From: Devosia sp.
GTDB lineage: Bacteria; Pseudomonadota; Alphaproteobacteria; Rhizobiales; Devosiaceae
Reading direction: 5' to 3'
NCBI GenBank assembly: GCA_015234425.1
Contig: JADGNE010000044.1
Location: 103,217-167,216, forward strand
DNA length: 64,000 nucleotides
Shown: positions 3,330-13,201 of the stretch, in pieces
Layout of the letters: the number at the start of each line of letters is the position of its first letter
Numbering within the stretch: the first letter of the stretch is position 1
Program-made: the position numbers and the translations under genes
Notes under the pieces: generated by a model
Databases searched by the model: none
What the model was told of the DNA's origin: nothing
What the model saw: only the letters and a program-made list of their open reading frames with translations

Positions 3330-4223
3330 TTGTCAATCATCACTCCACTGGCGCTCAATGGCGACCGCTCGGTCCGCAGCGGCAGCGCGAAGGCGCTCGC
3401 CGATGCCATCAGGCGCGGCGGCGATCTGCGCATCCGCACTGCCTTCCGCCACAACGAACATATCGACCCCAGTTCACCCAATCCGGAGCTGGTCGACGAG
3501 GTCGCCGAATTCCGCCAGACGCTGCTGCTCGACGACCATTGGTCTGCCGGAATCATGACGCTGCGCATGCCGGTCGAAATCCCCACCGGTTTCGGCCCCC
3601 GCCCGTCCATGTCGTTCTTCCTCTACAATCAGGATGGGCATCAGGCCATCGCGCGACCATTCCTCGATGGCCAGCCCGCTTCAGCCACACTTGGCCCATC
3701 GCCGCTCGATGATCACAGCGCCATGCCGCGCTATCACCAGTTCGACAGCTGGGACGCCGGCACCAACGCGCCGAGCAGCAATTTCATCTATGACTTCGAG
3801 AGCTACACCTTCCTCGTCAACGACCGTTGGCAGGAGGTTTACGCCCATGACAGCGCCGGCCATCCCGTCTCAGGTGCGCTCTCTGACCTGATCGACGCCT
3901 TTCAGCAGGGATGCCCGATCAAGCTCGCCATTTCCGGCCTCTGCGATGATCTCGCACCCGCGGCGCCGCTTACGCACGAAGTCTTCGTGCACGCCGGCTC
4001 CTGCTATTATTACACCGAGCAAAAGCTCTTCCTCACCGGCACGCACCCGGTCGTCCGCGTCCGCCCCGACATGCCGCTGCGCTACACCAGCCAGGGCTGG
4101 GATTTCGGCTGGCTGGTCGCCCGCACCGATGGCGAGGTCGAGCGCTGGCTCTGCAATCCTTACACCCTCAAATTCGAGCGCAGCCGGACACGGCACGCCA
4201 TCCGCTGGTTGATCGCACCGTGA
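3330..4223 (+). CDS. Unknown protein, 297 residues, catabolic-cluster member
   Basis: I do not recognise this family. The product is soluble, has no signal peptide or membrane helix and is rich in aromatic residues. The region around residues 85-175 alternates short hydrophobic strands with polar turns, and the C-terminal half holds a tyrosine-rich HAGSCYYYTEQK stretch and two Trp-rich segments, which would suit a beta-rich fold. The TTG start has GAGGAGAGGGG upstream, and the gene overlaps the next by GTGA, so it is translated with the acyltransferase. Context suggests an enzyme or carbohydrate-binding protein of the same pathway; nothing more specific is supported. Confidence 0.75.
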   Translation: MSIITPLALNGDRSVRSGSAKALADAIRRGGDLRIRTAFRHNEHIDPSSPNPELVDEVAEFRQTLLLDDHWSAGIMTLRMPVEIPTGFGPRPSMSFFLYNQDGHQAIARPFLDGQPASATLGPSPLDDHSAMPRYHQFDSWDAGTNAPSSNFIYDFESYTFLVNDRWQEVYAHDSAGHPVSGALSDLIDAFQQGCPIKLAISGLCDDLAPAAPLTHEVFVHAGSCYYYTEQKLFLTGTHPVVRVRPDMPLRYTSQGWDFGWLVARTDGEVERWLCNPYTLKFERSRTRHAIRWLIAP

Positions 4224-4914
4224 AATTTGATAACGCCAAGATTGGCGAAAACACCATCATCGAGCCCGACGTTTCCATCGGCTTCCGCTACCACTCCGAG
4301 TGTGGCCCGGCCACGATCGGCAGCCATGGCATCGTGCGCAAGGGCACGATCATCTATGGCGATGTCCGCATTGGCGATCATTTTCAGAGCGGGCACCACA
4401 CGGTGATCCGCGCCAAGGTGGCGATGGGTGATTTCTGTGCCATCGGCAATGGCTCGACCATCGAGGGGCTGGTGCGCATGGGGCAGGGCGTCCGAATAAT
4501 GTCCCATGTCTACATCCCCTCCCGCACCTGGTTCGGAGACCACATCTTTGTCGGGCCGGGCACGAAATTCCTCAATGAGCGCCTCCCCGGGCGTCTCGAC
4601 GATCCGCCGACGCCGCGCGGCGCGACATCGAGGATGATGTCATGATCGGCGGCGGTGTCACTGTCCTTCCCGGTGTCACTATTGGCGAGCGCAGTTTTGT
4701 CGCGGCCGGGGCCGTCGTTACGCGCGACGTGCCACCCCGCAGTCTCGTGATCGGGCCAAAAGGCGAGTGCCGCATCCTGCCGCCGCATCTCGATCGTCCC
4801 AACAGTCTGCGGCTGTGCGAAGCGCCGACCGATCTCTGGCATCCCGAAACAGATATTGCCGGACTTCACTGGCCGAGCGACTGGGCCGAAAGCTGGGAAG
4901 GGGTAACACAATGA
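4220..4914 (+). pseudogene. Hexapeptide-repeat acyltransferase, interrupted by a 1-nt frameshift
   Basis: Two adjoining reading frames together make one left-handed beta-helix acyltransferase of about 231 residues. The first frame (GTG at 4220) carries repeated [IV]G hexads and [18 protein letters not shown]. Near 4629 the frame must shift for the family sequence to continue as [20 protein letters not shown], then [12 protein letters not shown]. The spliced length is one base short of a multiple of three, which fits loss of one base in the run GCGAC-ATCGAG. Such enzymes transfer acetyl or other acyl groups to sugar amines. Either the gene is broken or the base was lost in sequencing. It overlaps both neighbours by 4 nt. 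Confidence 0.85.
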
Positions 4915-9025: not shown

Positions 9026-9264
9026 CGGCGGGACCCCAAATCGGTGCGGGACAAATCGCCCAGACCCATCTCGTACAAAACTTGGCGTCGTCGCGGAAGG
9101 GGCGTCGGGCCCGCTATGCATCCGGGAGATTTCGCCGATTTCTTGGGCTTGTACTGGTAGCTTAACTATCTCCGGCGTTCTTTCTGCAAATTGTACTAAT
9201 ATTGGGTAGGAATATTACGTGCTTTGCAGAGCATAAGTGGTCTTCCTCGCATAGTGGCAGGACA

Positions 9265-10116
9265 ATGGGCGGCGCATCTATTAATTTCAGTCCCATCGGG
9301 CAAGGCAATCTCTCGGTTGCCGCTGAACTGCTGAGAGAAGGGTTCCCCAAGCATCAGGGCGAATTCTGGGAGCGTTCTCTCAAGTCGGTATTCGCGTATT
9401 CGGACGCCTGGGGCCTGGGGTCTCCCGGCCATGTCATGCACGTTGATGGCGAGCCCGTCGGCGTGTTGCTGACCATCGGAAGGCGGACAGCCGATGGCCC
9501 GAAGATCGTCAATCTTTCGAGCTGGTATGTGCGCCCGAAATTTCGCTGGCTGGCCCCGCGCATGCTGATGCGTGCCACGTCGGACCCCTCGACCACCTAT
9601 ACAGATCTCACCGCCTCCGAGGAGGCTGCCAAGCTCAACAAGCTGCTGGGTTTCCGGACGATCACCGAGACCGTGGCCTATCTCATCCTGCCGATGACAG
9701 CGTTCGCGACCCGGCCGGGTACGCGCGTCGTTCCGGTGTCGGCACGCTCCATGGCGCGGCTCGATCCCGCCGACAGGACGATGCTCGAATTTCACGCTCA
9801 GCTCGATTGCATCTGCGCCGTGCTTGAAGACGAAGCGGGATCGAGCCCGCTGATCTTCACGCGCACCTCGCGCCGCGGCGTGCCGTTTGCCCGGCTGATC
9901 TATGCACGGGACAGGGGCGTGGCCCAGGCGGCAAGGGGCGCGATTGCCCGCTTCCTGATGCTGCGGGGCCTGTTCCTGCTCTGTCTCTTCGTCAATCGCG
10001 GCGAACCCATTCCCAGCGGATGGTTCGGCGGCGGCTCGCCGGTGCAGGTGAAGGGCGAATGGAACGATGGCCGCATCGATGCGGCCTATTCAGAACTGGC
10101 ATTTTTGGGCCTCTAG
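9265..10116 (+). CDS. GNAT-like acyltransferase of the carrier-protein cluster
   Basis: Product of about 283 residues. The first 150 residues look like a GNAT fold: an AAELLREGFP helix, a strand ending VGVLLTIGRR, then SSWYVRPKFRWLAPRMLMR, where WYV.P..R resembles the strand and acyl-CoA/ACP-binding helix, and KLLGFRTITE near the end. The C-terminal 130 residues are not recognised. ATG at 9265 is preceded by AGGA; a TTG at 9202 would add 21 residues. It lies directly upstream of a carrier protein, a ligase and a PLP decarboxylase, so it may move the carrier-bound acyl group to an acceptor. This role is inferred. Confidence 0.65.
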   Translation: MGGASINFSPIGQGNLSVAAELLREGFPKHQGEFWERSLKSVFAYSDAWGLGSPGHVMHVDGEPVGVLLTIGRRTADGPKIVNLSSWYVRPKFRWLAPRMLMRATSDPSTTYTDLTASEEAAKLNKLLGFRTITETVAYLILPMTAFATRPGTRVVPVSARSMARLDPADRTMLEFHAQLDCICAVLEDEAGSSPLIFTRTSRRGVPFARLIYARDRGVAQAARGAIARFLMLRGLFLLCLFVNRGEPIPSGWFGGGSPVQVKGEWNDGRIDAAYSELAFLGL

Positions 10117-10135
10117 GGCCAATCGGGGGACTATT

Positions 10136-10399
10136 GTGAGTGCAGTGACCATGCTCGTCGAGGACGATATTGAATCAATTGTCTATGGCTACCTCCGCGA
10201 GCGCTTTCCGGCGCTTGCGGACTGCGATGCCGATACGCCGCTGATCGAGACGGGGGCGCTCGATTCCCTCGGCTTCCTTGAGCTGATGATGTTTCTCAGC
10301 GAGAAATTCGGCATCGAACTCACCGATGATGACTTTGACCCGAGCAATCTCGAAACGCCCGGCAGCATCATCGCCTTCATCCGGCGGAACACCCGTTGA
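10136..10399 (+). CDS. Acyl carrier protein (PCP/ACP-like)
   Basis: Acidic four-helix carrier of 87 residues. The phosphopantetheine attachment serine is Ser44 in TGALDSLGFLELMMFL, followed by EKFGIELTDDDFDP as in stand-alone ACPs. GTG at 10136 has GGGGGA five bases upstream; ATG at 10151 is a possible alternative. Its stop overlaps the start of the ligase gene (TTGA), so the two are translationally coupled. It is a dedicated carrier, not the fatty-acid AcpP, judging by context and divergence. Confidence 0.88.
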   Translation: MSAVTMLVEDDIESIVYGYLRERFPALADCDADTPLIETGALDSLGFLELMMFLSEKFGIELTDDDFDPSNLETPGSIIAFIRRNTR

Positions 10400-11928
10400 G
10401 CGCTTCGCCCTATCTCCTTCACCACCTGCTTGATGGTGCCGCCGGCAATGCCGCCGAAGCCATCGTGCATGGCGAGCGGCGACTGACCTATGCTGATCTG
10501 GTGGCGGCTGCCCGCAATTGCGCCGGTGAGCTTGTCGCGGCAGGGCTTGGGCGCGGTGATCGGGCGGTCATCTTCCTGCCGCGCGGGGTTGAGGAGTGCT
10601 GGGCGATCTTTGGCGTCAGCATGGCCCAGGGCGTCTTTGTTCCGATCAATGCCCTGCTCAAAGCGCCGCAGGTCCGCCATATCGTCGCCGATTGCGAAGC
10701 GACCGTCGTCATCTCCAGCAAAAGCCTCGCCGAGATCATCGAGCCGGCCCTCGACGGGCTGGAAAATGTTCACCTGATCTACGTTGAGGATATGGGGCAG
10801 GGCGCAGGCGAGCCGGCCCCCCGCGACGTCGCCATTGGCGAAGATCTTGCCGCCATTCTCTACACTTCCGGTTCCACAGGCCTGCCCAAGGGCGTGATGC
10901 TGTCGCATCGCAATCTGCTGGCCGGTACGCACATCGTGCGGACCTATCTCGGGATTACCGCGAGGGACCGCATTCTCTCCGTGCTGCCGTTCAGTTTCGA
11001 CTACGGGCTCAATCAGTTGCTGACCGCAGTCGAACAGAAGGCTGGTCTCGTCATCCTCACCTTCCGCTTCGGCGATGAGATCGTCCGAGTGCTCCGCGAC
11101 GAAGCCATCACCGCGCTCGCCGGCGTGCCCACGATCTGGGCCATCCTCACCAAGGGGTCGCCGCTCCTCCGCAAAACCGAATTGCCGCGTCTGCGCTACA
11201 TCACCAATTCAGGCGGCCGGGTGCCTGCCGAAACGGTGGCAAGCCTGCGCAGCCTCCTGGGCGAGACCCAGATCTATCTCATGTACGGGCTCACCGAGGC
11301 ATTTCGCTCGACTTTCCTGCCGCCCGAGGACATCGAAAAGCGCCCCACTTCCATTGGTCGCGCCATCCCCGAATGCGAAATCTTTGCCGTAACAGCCGAC
11401 GGCCGCCGCGCTCGTCCGGGCGAACCGGGTATTCTCGTTCATCGCGGCCCCACGGTCTCCCTCGGCTATTGGCGCCGGCCGGAGGAAACAGCACGCGTGC
11501 TGCGGCCTCATCCCTTCCTGCCCCCAGAACAGGGCGGTGAGATCGTGTGCTATTCCGGCGATATCGTCGTCGAGGACGATGAGGGCTTCTTCAGCTTCGT
11601 CGGTCGCGATGGGGCAATGATAAAATCGTCCGGCTACCGCATCAGCCCGACCGAAGTCGAGGAAGCCTTGATGGCGACCGGTCGCTTCCGCCAGGTGGCG
11701 GTGATCGGCCTGCCCGATGCATTGGCGGGCGAAAAGGTGCACGCGGTCGCGGTTCCATCAGGCGATGGGGTCGATACAGCCGAGGTGATGCGCGCCCTCT
11801 CTGAAAAGCTCGCGAGCTATATGCTGCCGCGCGCCGTCGAGCTCTGCGAAGCATTGCCGACGACCCCCAATGGCAAGGTGGACTACAAGGGCCTCGTGCG
11901 GGAGCGGAGCGAACATGTCGGCGTCTGA
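10396..11928 (+). CDS. AMP-forming acyl/aminoacyl ligase (ANL superfamily)
   Basis: Adenylating enzyme of 510 residues. It shows the P-loop YTSGSTGLPKGVM, LMYGLTEAFRS, the GYW motif, YSGDIV, FVGRDGAMIKSSGYRISPTEVE, and the catalytic Lys in PNGKVDYK near the C-terminus. It should activate a carboxylate with ATP and load it on the carrier protein encoded just upstream. The sequence resembles the ligases found beside carrier proteins and PLP decarboxylases in exosortase-A-type and butirosin-type loci. TTG at 10396 overlaps the carrier stop. It overlaps the decarboxylase by 14 nt. Confidence 0.88.
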   Translation: MSASPYLLHHLLDGAAGNAAEAIVHGERRLTYADLVAAARNCAGELVAAGLGRGDRAVIFLPRGVEECWAIFGVSMAQGVFVPINALLKAPQVRHIVADCEATVVISSKSLAEIIEPALDGLENVHLIYVEDMGQGAGEPAPRDVAIGEDLAAILYTSGSTGLPKGVMLSHRNLLAGTHIVRTYLGITARDRILSVLPFSFDYGLNQLLTAVEQKAGLVILTFRFGDEIVRVLRDEAITALAGVPTIWAILTKGSPLLRKTELPRLRYITNSGGRVPAETVASLRSLLGETQIYLMYGLTEAFRSTFLPPEDIEKRPTSIGRAIPECEIFAVTADGRRARPGEPGILVHRGPTVSLGYWRRPEETARVLRPHPFLPPEQGGEIVCYSGDIVVEDDEGFFSFVGRDGAMIKSSGYRISPTEVEEALMATGRFRQVAVIGLPDALAGEKVHAVAVPSGDGVDTAEVMRALSEKLASYMLPRAVELCEALPTTPNGKVDYKGLVRERSEHVGV

Positions 11929-13201
11929 CACGGCAAAGCCGGCGCATGGTCCCGATGTTGCCCGCTCGATCTTCGCAGTCGATGGCTCCGATCTCATGGT
12001 CGGCGGCGTAGCCGTTCGCTCAATCGTCGAGCATGTCGGCAGGCCGACCTTCCTCTATGACGGCGGGATCCTCCGCGCCAGCTACCGCGCCCTCGCAGAT
12101 GCTCTCGATGGCTTTGCCGAAATCCATTATTCAGTGAAGGCCAATCCGGCCAAGGCGATAATCGCGCTTTTCCTTTCCGAGGGCGCGGGCATCGAAATCG
12201 CCTCGATCGGGGAATATCGCGCGGCCATAGCAGCGGGCGCTGCGCCGGAGCGCATCCTTTTCGCCGGTCCGGGCAAGCGTCGGCGTGAGCTGGAAGAGGT
12301 CATCGCCGATGGCATCGGCGAAATCCATGTCGAGAGCCATGAAGAGATCGAGCGGATCGAAGCCATCGCCGCCGGCCTTTCACTGCGGGTGAAAATCTCG
12401 CTGCGCATCAATCCCATGGCCGAGGCGCAGGCCGGCGCTATGCGCATGGGTGGAAAACCCACGGCATTCGGGTTTTGCGAGGAAGACCTCGATCCCGTCT
12501 TCGCCCAACTCGCGCAGTGCCGACAGCTCGATTTCGTCGGCGTTCATATCTATGGCGGCACGCAGATCCTTGATGCGGAGGCGCTCCTCAACCAGTGGCG
12601 CCACGGCATCCGCATTGCCGGCGACATCGCCGCCCGACTTGGCCGCCCGCTCGAAACCATCGATCTCGGCGGCGGTCTCGGCATTCCCTATTATGCCGGT
12701 GAAACCCCGCTCGATCTGGCAGCCTTCAAAGCAGGTCTGCCGGAACTCTCGGCACTGCTTGCCGCCGATAGCAACCTCGCCGCTGCGCGCATTGTGGTGG
12801 AACCGGGACGGTTCCTCACCGGGCCGGGCGGCATCTATGTCGCTGAGGTCAATGCGGTGAAAGACGTGCGCGGCACACTCTTCGTCATCACCGATGGCGG
12901 AATGCACCATCATCTGGCCGCCTCGGGCAATCTGGGGCAGATCATCAAGCGCGATTATCCCATCGTCGCTCCGGCCCGCATGGATGAGGCCCCCTCAATG
13001 GCCGCCACCATCGTCGGCCCGCTCTGCACGCCGCTCGATACGCTGGCCCGATCCGCGCTCCTGCCCGCCCTCAAGGCCGGCGATCTCATCGCCGTCCTCC
13101 AGTCCGGTGCCTATGGTCCCTCCGCCAGTCCGGGGAACTTCCTCAGCCATGCCCCGGCCGCAGAAGTGCTGGTCGAGAACGGTGAGGTCATGATCCTCTA
13201 G
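11915..13201 (+). CDS. Group IV PLP decarboxylase (ornithine/DAP/arginine fold)
   Basis: Fold-type III decarboxylase of 428 residues. It has the PLP lysine Lys75 in HYSVKANP, an HIYGGTQ motif, the glycine loop DLGGGLGIPY, VEPGRFLTGPGG and the dimer-interface GPLCTPLD followed by SGAYGPSAS. The Cys-x-x-x-Asp form differs from CESGD of diaminopimelate decarboxylase and is shared with decarboxylases found next to carrier proteins. BtrK of butirosin synthesis, which decarboxylates glutamyl-ACP, is a known precedent. It may thus act on an aminoacyl carrier protein. ATG at 11915 is chosen because earlier starts lie deep in the ligase gene. Confidence 0.85.
   Translation: MSASDTAKPAHGPDVARSIFAVDGSDLMVGGVAVRSIVEHVGRPTFLYDGGILRASYRALADALDGFAEIHYSVKANPAKAIIALFLSEGAGIEIASIGEYRAAIAAGAAPERILFAGPGKRRRELEEVIADGIGEIHVESHEEIERIEAIAAGLSLRVKISLRINPMAEAQAGAMRMGGKPTAFGFCEEDLDPVFAQLAQCRQLDFVGVHIYGGTQILDAEALLNQWRHGIRIAGDIAARLGRPLETIDLGGGLGIPYYAGETPLDLAAFKAGLPELSALLAADSNLAAARIVVEPGRFLTGPGGIYVAEVNAVKDVRGTLFVITDGGMHHHLAASGNLGQIIKRDYPIVAPARMDEAPSMAATIVGPLCTPLDTLARSALLPALKAGDLIAVLQSGAYGPSASPGNFLSHAPAAEVLVENGEVMIL

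Follow-up and report, generated by a model that had tools for sequence, protein, structure and literature searches.

A conserved four-gene cassette of Devosia encodes a candidate carrier-dependent beta-aminoacylation unit, possibly acting on surface polysaccharides

Genes of the cassette

This report concerns a cassette of four genes in a window of 64,000 nucleotides (64 kb), which is the whole stretch of DNA that was analysed and lies on contig C44 (JADGNE010000044.1, assembly GCA_015234425.1) of a 3.98-Mb Devosia genome. The genes occupy window positions 9265-13201, are co-directional on the plus strand, and encode a GNAT-like protein, a carrier protein, an AMP-forming ligase, and a BtrK-type decarboxylase dependent on pyridoxal phosphate (PLP) (Table 1). 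The carrier and ligase genes overlap by 4 bases and the ligase and decarboxylase genes by 14 bases, and a gap of 19 bases separates the GNAT gene from the carrier gene. The original prediction for this locus had named four consecutive genes, the last three overlapping, with Ser44 in the carrier and GPLCTPLD in the decarboxylase; all of the open reading frames (ORFs) were present, the last three with matching families, and the GNAT label is based on the confidently predicted fold. It had also stated that no polyketide synthase or nonribosomal peptide synthetase lies nearby, and none was found among the 20 window proteins scanned (4 of the cassette and 16 neighbours). The carrier matched PF00550 at 32.3 bits (cut-off 20.8), and its attachment site reads D43-S44-L45, the first two residues being the same in all 19 aligned members.

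Table 1. Cassette genes and upstream region, in window positions
Feature	Position	Strand	Basis
GNAT-like tandem acyltransferase, putative carrier-to-acceptor transferase	9265..10116	+	ORF, 283 aa; predicted fold
Free-standing carrier, phosphopantetheine site Ser44	10136..10399	+	87 aa from GTG; PF00550
AMP-forming aminoacyl-carrier ligase (putative), VinN-like pocket	10396..11928	+	510 aa, TTG start; PF00501 and PF13193
PLP-dependent decarboxylase, BtrK-like, DGGMHHH and GPLCTPLD	11915..13201	+	428 aa; PF02784 and PF00278
Intergenic stretch upstream of the cassette, candidate promoter region	9122..9264	.	Between minus-strand ORF end 9121 and GNAT start 9265

Conservation and co-inheritance

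GTDB species genomes were scanned with a GNAT alignment, which gave 43 loci that overlap many genomes of a second sample, 297 genomes of the order. Genes were called with a codon-score caller in this high-GC DNA (longest-ORF calls were misleading); the training set of 24 genes for this caller included cassette genes, and it still misses some genes, in locus L172 and in the case of the deacetylase-like gene of L062. The order GNAT-carrier-ligase-decarboxylase on one strand, on whose conservation the original prediction depended, was found at 34 of the 43 loci, including one (L106) at which the decarboxylase is interrupted by a contig end. The other nine comprise a locus whose ligase is split into several frames (L083), one whose contig ends inside the ligase (L089), six with the GNAT but not the trio (L087, L094, L099, L102, L105, and L108), and a spurious one (L109). 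Devosia, Agrobacterium, Rhizobium, Shinella, Phreatobacter, and Hyphomicrobium are among the genera that carry the cassette, which occurs in bacteria associated with soil and plants. A GNAT relative was present at E ≤ 0.001 in 34 genomes of the order sample, and the 12 best loci outside the window genome were all in one genus, g23 (probably Phreatobacter), 11 with the four-gene order and the twelfth stopping at a contig end.

Flanking genes differ between these settings: a GidA-family protein and an alcohol dehydrogenase on one side and a chorismate-binding enzyme, tgt, and a queuosine synthase on the other in Agrobacterium, a TRAP transporter and an RraA-like protein in Phreatobacter, and DUF502 and DUF2189 proteins in Hyphomicrobium. 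No fifth gene was common to the differing settings in the loci compared; the cassette is a self-contained unit set between unrelated neighbours. Pairwise distances were correlated across 34 of 36 gene sets (32 loci, the window, and genome G360), with L101 (short carrier, start choice) and L106 dropped. Mantel r was 0.925-0.967, with 0 of 2000 permutations as high and the GNAT-ligase pair at 0.967, and this agreement indicates that the genes were inherited together. Mean identity over the sets was 42% for the GNAT vs 69% for the ligase, a GNAT divergence about 1.9 times that of the ligase, which would fit a fixed activation chemistry combined with a varying acceptor.

In 23 of the 297 genomes, a decarboxylase matched TIGR03099 at E ≤ 1e-75. 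Thirteen of them (the window genome and twelve of g23) have the GNAT adjoining the decarboxylase, or on another contig in the split assembly G246. A distant GNAT relative adjoins the ligase, decarboxylase, and carrier in G187; G196 and G117 have carrier-ligase-decarboxylase without an adjoining GNAT, and G174 and G272 have the decarboxylase alone. The remaining genomes (G151, G295, G265, G116, and G056) carry decarboxylases that are more distant and lie in other contexts; they were left out of the cassette counts. The conspecific genome G345 (L143:11144-12250) has a deletion of 1,699 bp, equivalent to window bases 10485-12183, which took out the larger part of the ligase together with the beginning of the decarboxylase. 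The short stretch of ligase frame that is left reads on into what remains of the decarboxylase, and the GNAT and carrier are kept; ligase and decarboxylase functions are both presumably lost.

The 16 scanned neighbours of the cassette in the window are catabolic, regulatory, and transport genes, and among the compared loci just the near relatives G345 and G360 have these genes around the cassette. They include a dihydrodipicolinate synthase-like protein, an aminotransferase, a ureidoglycolate lyase-like protein, ABC transporters, and a GntR regulator, and were rejected as pathway members because the cassette order persists elsewhere without them. A hexapeptide-type acyltransferase at window positions 4220-4914 is broken into two frames (4220-4645 and 4642-4914), likewise in G345, and its counterpart in G360 is a single frame of 231 aa.

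Related genes were also seen in other arrangements. Solitary decarboxylases with 62-64% identity to a cassette member occur at L173 and L174, with no ligase among the called genes in about 9 kb on each side and with hemC- and tilS-like neighbours (named by eye). At L178:8057-10279, a BtrK-type decarboxylase part (39% over 326 aa) is contained in a protein of 740 aa, which is clustered with ligases and carrier-sized proteins.

Decarboxylase, ligase, and predicted substrate

The best PDB matches of the decarboxylase were two BtrK entries, 7ru7 and 2j66 (2.2e-78 and 6.4e-78), and the best diaminopimelate decarboxylase matched at 2.9e-50. DGGMHHH and GPLCTP are common to the enzyme and BtrK, and GPLCTPLD (residues 368-375) was kept in 58 of 58 members with at least 50% identity, 47 of which also have DGGMHHHLAA (duplicates included). 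We regard it as very improbable that the enzyme acts, like LysA, on free or carrier-bound diaminopimelate and that the operon makes a lysyl-carrier. The lysA model TIGR01048 does give 270.9 bits on the decarboxylase, but this is under its cut-off of 297.9; aligned diaminopimelate decarboxylases have GP-x-CE where the cassette enzyme has GPLCTP, and a separate LysA-like paralogue on contig C30 of the same genome (34% identity) reads GPVCETGD. Identity as a diaminopimelate decarboxylase was rejected on these grounds.

When the pocket segment of the ligase was searched alone against PDB, VinN was the best match (3wv4/3wvn), and D202, S272, and R304 of the ligase align with Asp230, Ser299, and Arg331 of VinN (chain residues 246, 315, and 347). 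Roles in holding an aspartate-type substrate are proposed for these VinN residues in PMC7756342. The triad was present in 54 of 54 ligases with at least 55% identity (some genomes being counted twice and some of the ligases not lying beside a GNAT) vs 1 of 21 others.

An alpha-carboxyl bound in a thioester cannot be decarboxylated, and decarboxylation on the carrier needs the side-chain carboxyl in the thioester. For this reason, and because the VinN pocket residues are kept, the substrate would most likely be an acidic amino acid activated at its side-chain carboxyl, with L-aspartate giving a beta-alanyl group. The original prediction had spoken of an amino acid without specifying it, and the VinN triad would narrow this to an acidic one. 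L-aspartate is the simpler choice because the cassette has no glutamate mutase.

A rather unlikely alternative is that L-glutamate is loaded as gamma-glutamyl-carrier and converted to a gamma-aminobutyrate (GABA)-carrier as in butirosin synthesis, with GABA then being transferred. BtrK, to which the decarboxylase is closest among solved structures, acts on BtrI-S-glutamate according to PMC7857480. The VinN-type pocket of the ligase nevertheless retains the residues for which binding of an aspartate-type substrate is proposed. In addition, BtrJ belongs to another ligase class, being an ADP-forming ATP-grasp enzyme, whereas the cassette ligase is an AMP-forming PF00501 protein.

Some findings on the ligase count against aspartate as the substrate. 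Over its full length, the best PDB match was linear gramicidin synthetase (3.4e-76 vs 2.3e-58 for VinN), and the PDB profile search with the ligase showed gramicidin synthetase alignments only. Six of the 21 more distant ligases have a D-T-R pocket, and three of these six belong to a second module without a decarboxylase; the triad itself does not tell aspartate from 3-methylaspartate.

This second carrier module lies in the window genome beside a polysaccharide cluster (L121:1342-7331, equivalent to C30:81242-87231) and also occurs in G360 (L148) and at L087. It encodes a 373-aa protein without a Pfam match, an asparagine-synthase family protein that matches the XrtA amidotransferase model below its cut-off, an 86-aa carrier, an AMP-forming ligase with the D-T-R pocket, and an NAD-synthase-like protein. 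On a plasmid of Pseudochrobactrum algeriensis (L036:8124-10852), a ligase, a carrier, and a GNAT relative occur with no decarboxylase alongside; the ligase pocket there is D-C-V, and the carrier may bear a different acyl group.

GNAT-like transferase

The GNAT-like protein had no Pfam match at E 0.1 and no NCBIfam match at E 0.01, and the PDB profile search gave no credible relative, with one meaningless match at E 0.53. An AlphaFold model built from 36 sequences was two-lobed, with a mean predicted local distance difference test score of 93.3 and a predicted template modelling (TM) score of 0.89. Foldseek searches with this model gave 238 matches at E ≤ 0.001, and the best 50 of the 238 include tandem GNATs, among others Eis proteins and a clostridial glucosamine N-acetyltransferase, at 9-16% identity and TM of about 0.5. 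A tandem GNAT fold is therefore predicted from the modelled structure. Some tandem GNATs of the Eis and clostridial types acylate the amines of amino sugars. The usual GNAT loop motif for the diphosphate of coenzyme A (CoA) is [QR]xxGx[GA], and its glycines (G-x-G) were found in 0 of the 36 aligned members, so the cassette protein differs in this loop from these relatives; such a loss is expected if the carrier is the acyl donor. Invariant residues of the family are N83, S85, W87, H177, C182, S276, and E277.

It is improbable, in our estimate, that the protein instead N-acylates the carrier-bound amino group from an acyl-CoA, as a protecting group, and that another enzyme carries out the transfer. 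Amino protection on the carrier does occur in vicenistatin synthesis and is compared with butirosin in PMC11284099, but the missing loop glycines and the lack of an accompanying fifth gene in the loci compared argue against this reading.

Genomic context and the probable acceptor

Polysaccharide gene clusters were the sole functional theme seen to recur in unrelated loci. On annotated plasmids of Shinella and Rhizobium, the unit lies among glycosyltransferases and flippase-type genes, with a nucleotide-sugar dehydrogenase and a polysaccharide deacetylase in two of three; the ligase of Rhizobium CC-CFT758 is interrupted and carries no annotation. The cassettes of D. crocina (NZ_FPCK01000003.1) and D. 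equisanguinis (NZ_UZWD01000038.1) are embedded in polysaccharide clusters and adjoin sugar transferase (PF02397), Wzx-type, Wzy_C, and deacetylase genes. In the window genome, the cluster orthologous to that of D. crocina lies on C30, not on the cassette contig (sugar transferase 76%, Wzx 65%, GT2 73%, and deacetylase 67% identity), and in G345 and G360, relatives with single-contig assemblies, about 1 Mb separates the cassette from that sugar transferase. Within the family, the sugar transferase was found at E ≤ 1e-100 in all six genomes with an intact cassette (G000, G360, G312, G314, G375, and G381, with identity of just 43-48% in the last three) vs 34 of 129 others (p = 5e-4), or in seven of seven when G345 with its broken cassette is added (p = 1.5e-4).

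Neighbourhoods of up to about 10 kb on each side, several shortened by contig ends, were scored for polysaccharide marker classes with seeds taken from L067, L068, L035, L037, L038, L102, L120, and L122. At least three classes were found at 6 of 36 cassettes vs 0 of 40 control stretches (p = 0.009), a test biased toward the seed clusters in that L067, L068, L102, L037, and L038 were also scored; the controls were stretches at hand-chosen round positions in 9 genomes. At least one marker was found at 7 of 36 cassettes and at 1 of 40 controls; the corresponding figures were 6 of 6 for loci with the GNAT alone and 5 of 14 for the wider GNAT family. The GNAT relative of G196 lies inside a polysaccharide cluster, with carrier-ligase-decarboxylase on another contig, and that of G272 lies among polysaccharide genes, with the decarboxylase on another contig.

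In L087 and in beta-proteobacterial metagenome-assembled genomes (L099, L102, L105, and L108), which are without the full trio, the GNAT relative directly adjoins a Wzx-like flippase of 475-485 aa. In Shinella yambaruensis, an additional GNAT copy that lacks the trio (L094) lies about 17 kb from a full cassette (L082) on the same contig, beside other polysaccharide genes.

Other results weigh against a polysaccharide acceptor. At 30 of the 36 cassettes fewer than three marker classes were found, and no polysaccharide genes were recognised beside the cassette in Agrobacterium (11 loci), Phreatobacter, or Hyphomicrobium; the scanned neighbours in the window are, as described above, of other kinds. 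The p values for the sugar transferase ignore relatedness, and the 129 comparison genomes include five with weaker GNAT hits, two with the sugar transferase and three without. G345 keeps the sugar transferase of the cluster despite its broken cassette, and its deletion means that the cassette trait is dispensable. Surface traits are often lost in this way among members of one species.

We consider it unlikely that the link to polysaccharides is incidental and that the cassette instead makes a small metabolite, soluble or secreted, or modifies a lipid or protein. The widely varying neighbours and the 30 cassettes below three marker classes favour this alternative, but no other recurring theme was seen, and the markers at every GNAT-only locus and the GNAT relatives among polysaccharide genes away from the decarboxylase in G196 and G272 point the other way. 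The acceptor is probably a surface polysaccharide, which is likelier than any single alternative. The acceptor had been called unknown in the original prediction; the recurrence of polysaccharide clusters in unrelated loci qualifies this, although the majority of cassettes are not beside polysaccharide genes.

Proposed pathway and comparison with known systems

The evidence favours the sequence of activation, loading, decarboxylation on the carrier, and transfer by the GNAT that had been put forward in the original prediction. From the pocket residues, the ligase would adenylate the beta-carboxyl of L-aspartate and load it on the phosphopantetheine of carrier Ser44. By analogy with BtrK and VinO, the PLP enzyme would then remove the alpha-carboxyl on the carrier to give beta-alanyl-S-carrier, and with decarboxylation on the carrier no free beta-alanine would be needed. 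The fold, the lost CoA loop, and the gene order suggest that the tandem GNAT would finally move the beta-alanyl group to an amine, most likely that of an amino sugar in a surface polysaccharide precursor in the cytoplasm; the target in the window genome would be the polysaccharide of the C30 cluster. The balance of evidence favours the conversion of beta-aspartyl to beta-alanyl, and the complete proposal, in which the cassette is a beta-aminoacylation unit with a likely amino sugar acceptor, is given about an even chance of being correct.

The closest working models are judged to be VinN-VinL-VinO or BolO-BolC-BolN and not the butirosin set. In the vicenistatin (VinN-VinL-VinO) and fluvirucin B2 (FlvN) systems, as proposed for the cassette, aspartate-type amino acids are activated by an AMP-forming ligase and attached to a free carrier, and in vicenistatin synthesis a PLP enzyme decarboxylates the bound residue there; these systems, and the recognition of Asp by FlvN, are described in PMC11284099. 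The vicenistatin set differs in that VinM and VinK pass the beta-aminoacyl group on to start a macrolactam polyketide, whereas the cassette has a GNAT and recurring polysaccharide contexts. The bolagladin set (BolO-BolC-BolN) likewise combines a VinN-like ligase, a free carrier, and a BtrK-like decarboxylase, and conversion of L-Asp to beta-alanyl-carrier is proposed for it, but it feeds a lipodepsipeptide pathway. The original prediction had pointed to BtrJ-BtrI-BtrK of butirosin synthesis. The likeness holds for the decarboxylase and for decarboxylation of an acidic amino acid on the carrier; it does not extend to the ligase, which is of the AMP-forming type used in the VinN and BolO systems, or to the predicted substrate, as butirosin synthesis converts glutamate to GABA. 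The butirosin side chain is transferred by BtrH. Decoration of polysaccharides with beta-alanyl groups by such a route was not found in the literature searched, most subscription journals lying outside it.

Exosortase-associated families and implications

The original prediction had also noted that such sets occur beside exosortase-A loci. The families are indeed related, as TIGR03098 and TIGR03099 were the best NCBIfam models for the ligase and decarboxylase, but both proteins scored under the cut-offs (545.5 bits vs 592.35 and 409.9 bits vs 478.45). No exosortase (PF09721) was found in the window genome, as the original prediction had stated for the vicinity, or in 23 genomes with the cassette or a related decarboxylase, in a search whose control matched 1 of 14 genomes, an archaeon, so that its sensitivity in bacteria was barely shown. 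Membership in the two exosortase-associated families was rejected on the missed cut-offs and the lack of an exosortase. The ligase and decarboxylase of G187 pass both cut-offs (731 and 596 bits), again with no exosortase found, and this set sits with its GNAT relative and with glycosyltransferase-like and deacetylase-like genes, where the marker test saw one class. This suggests that the two families may serve the decoration of polysaccharides rather than sorting. No relevant paper on an exosortase with a decarboxylase was found in the literature searched.

Taken more broadly, the cassette would be a relocating, self-contained system that decorates surface polysaccharides with beta-alanine derived from aspartate, its GNAT having exchanged CoA for a carrier, and the exosortase A-associated pair would carry out the same chemistry, unrelated to protein sorting; we hold this tentatively, at somewhat less than an even chance. 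If true, it would give a biochemically testable role to a ligase-decarboxylase pair that NCBIfam names just by its exosortase association, and a positively charged amino group would be placed on a surface polymer by a route not found described for polysaccharides. Adhesion, metal binding, and flocculation would be expected to change with free amines on exopolysaccharides.

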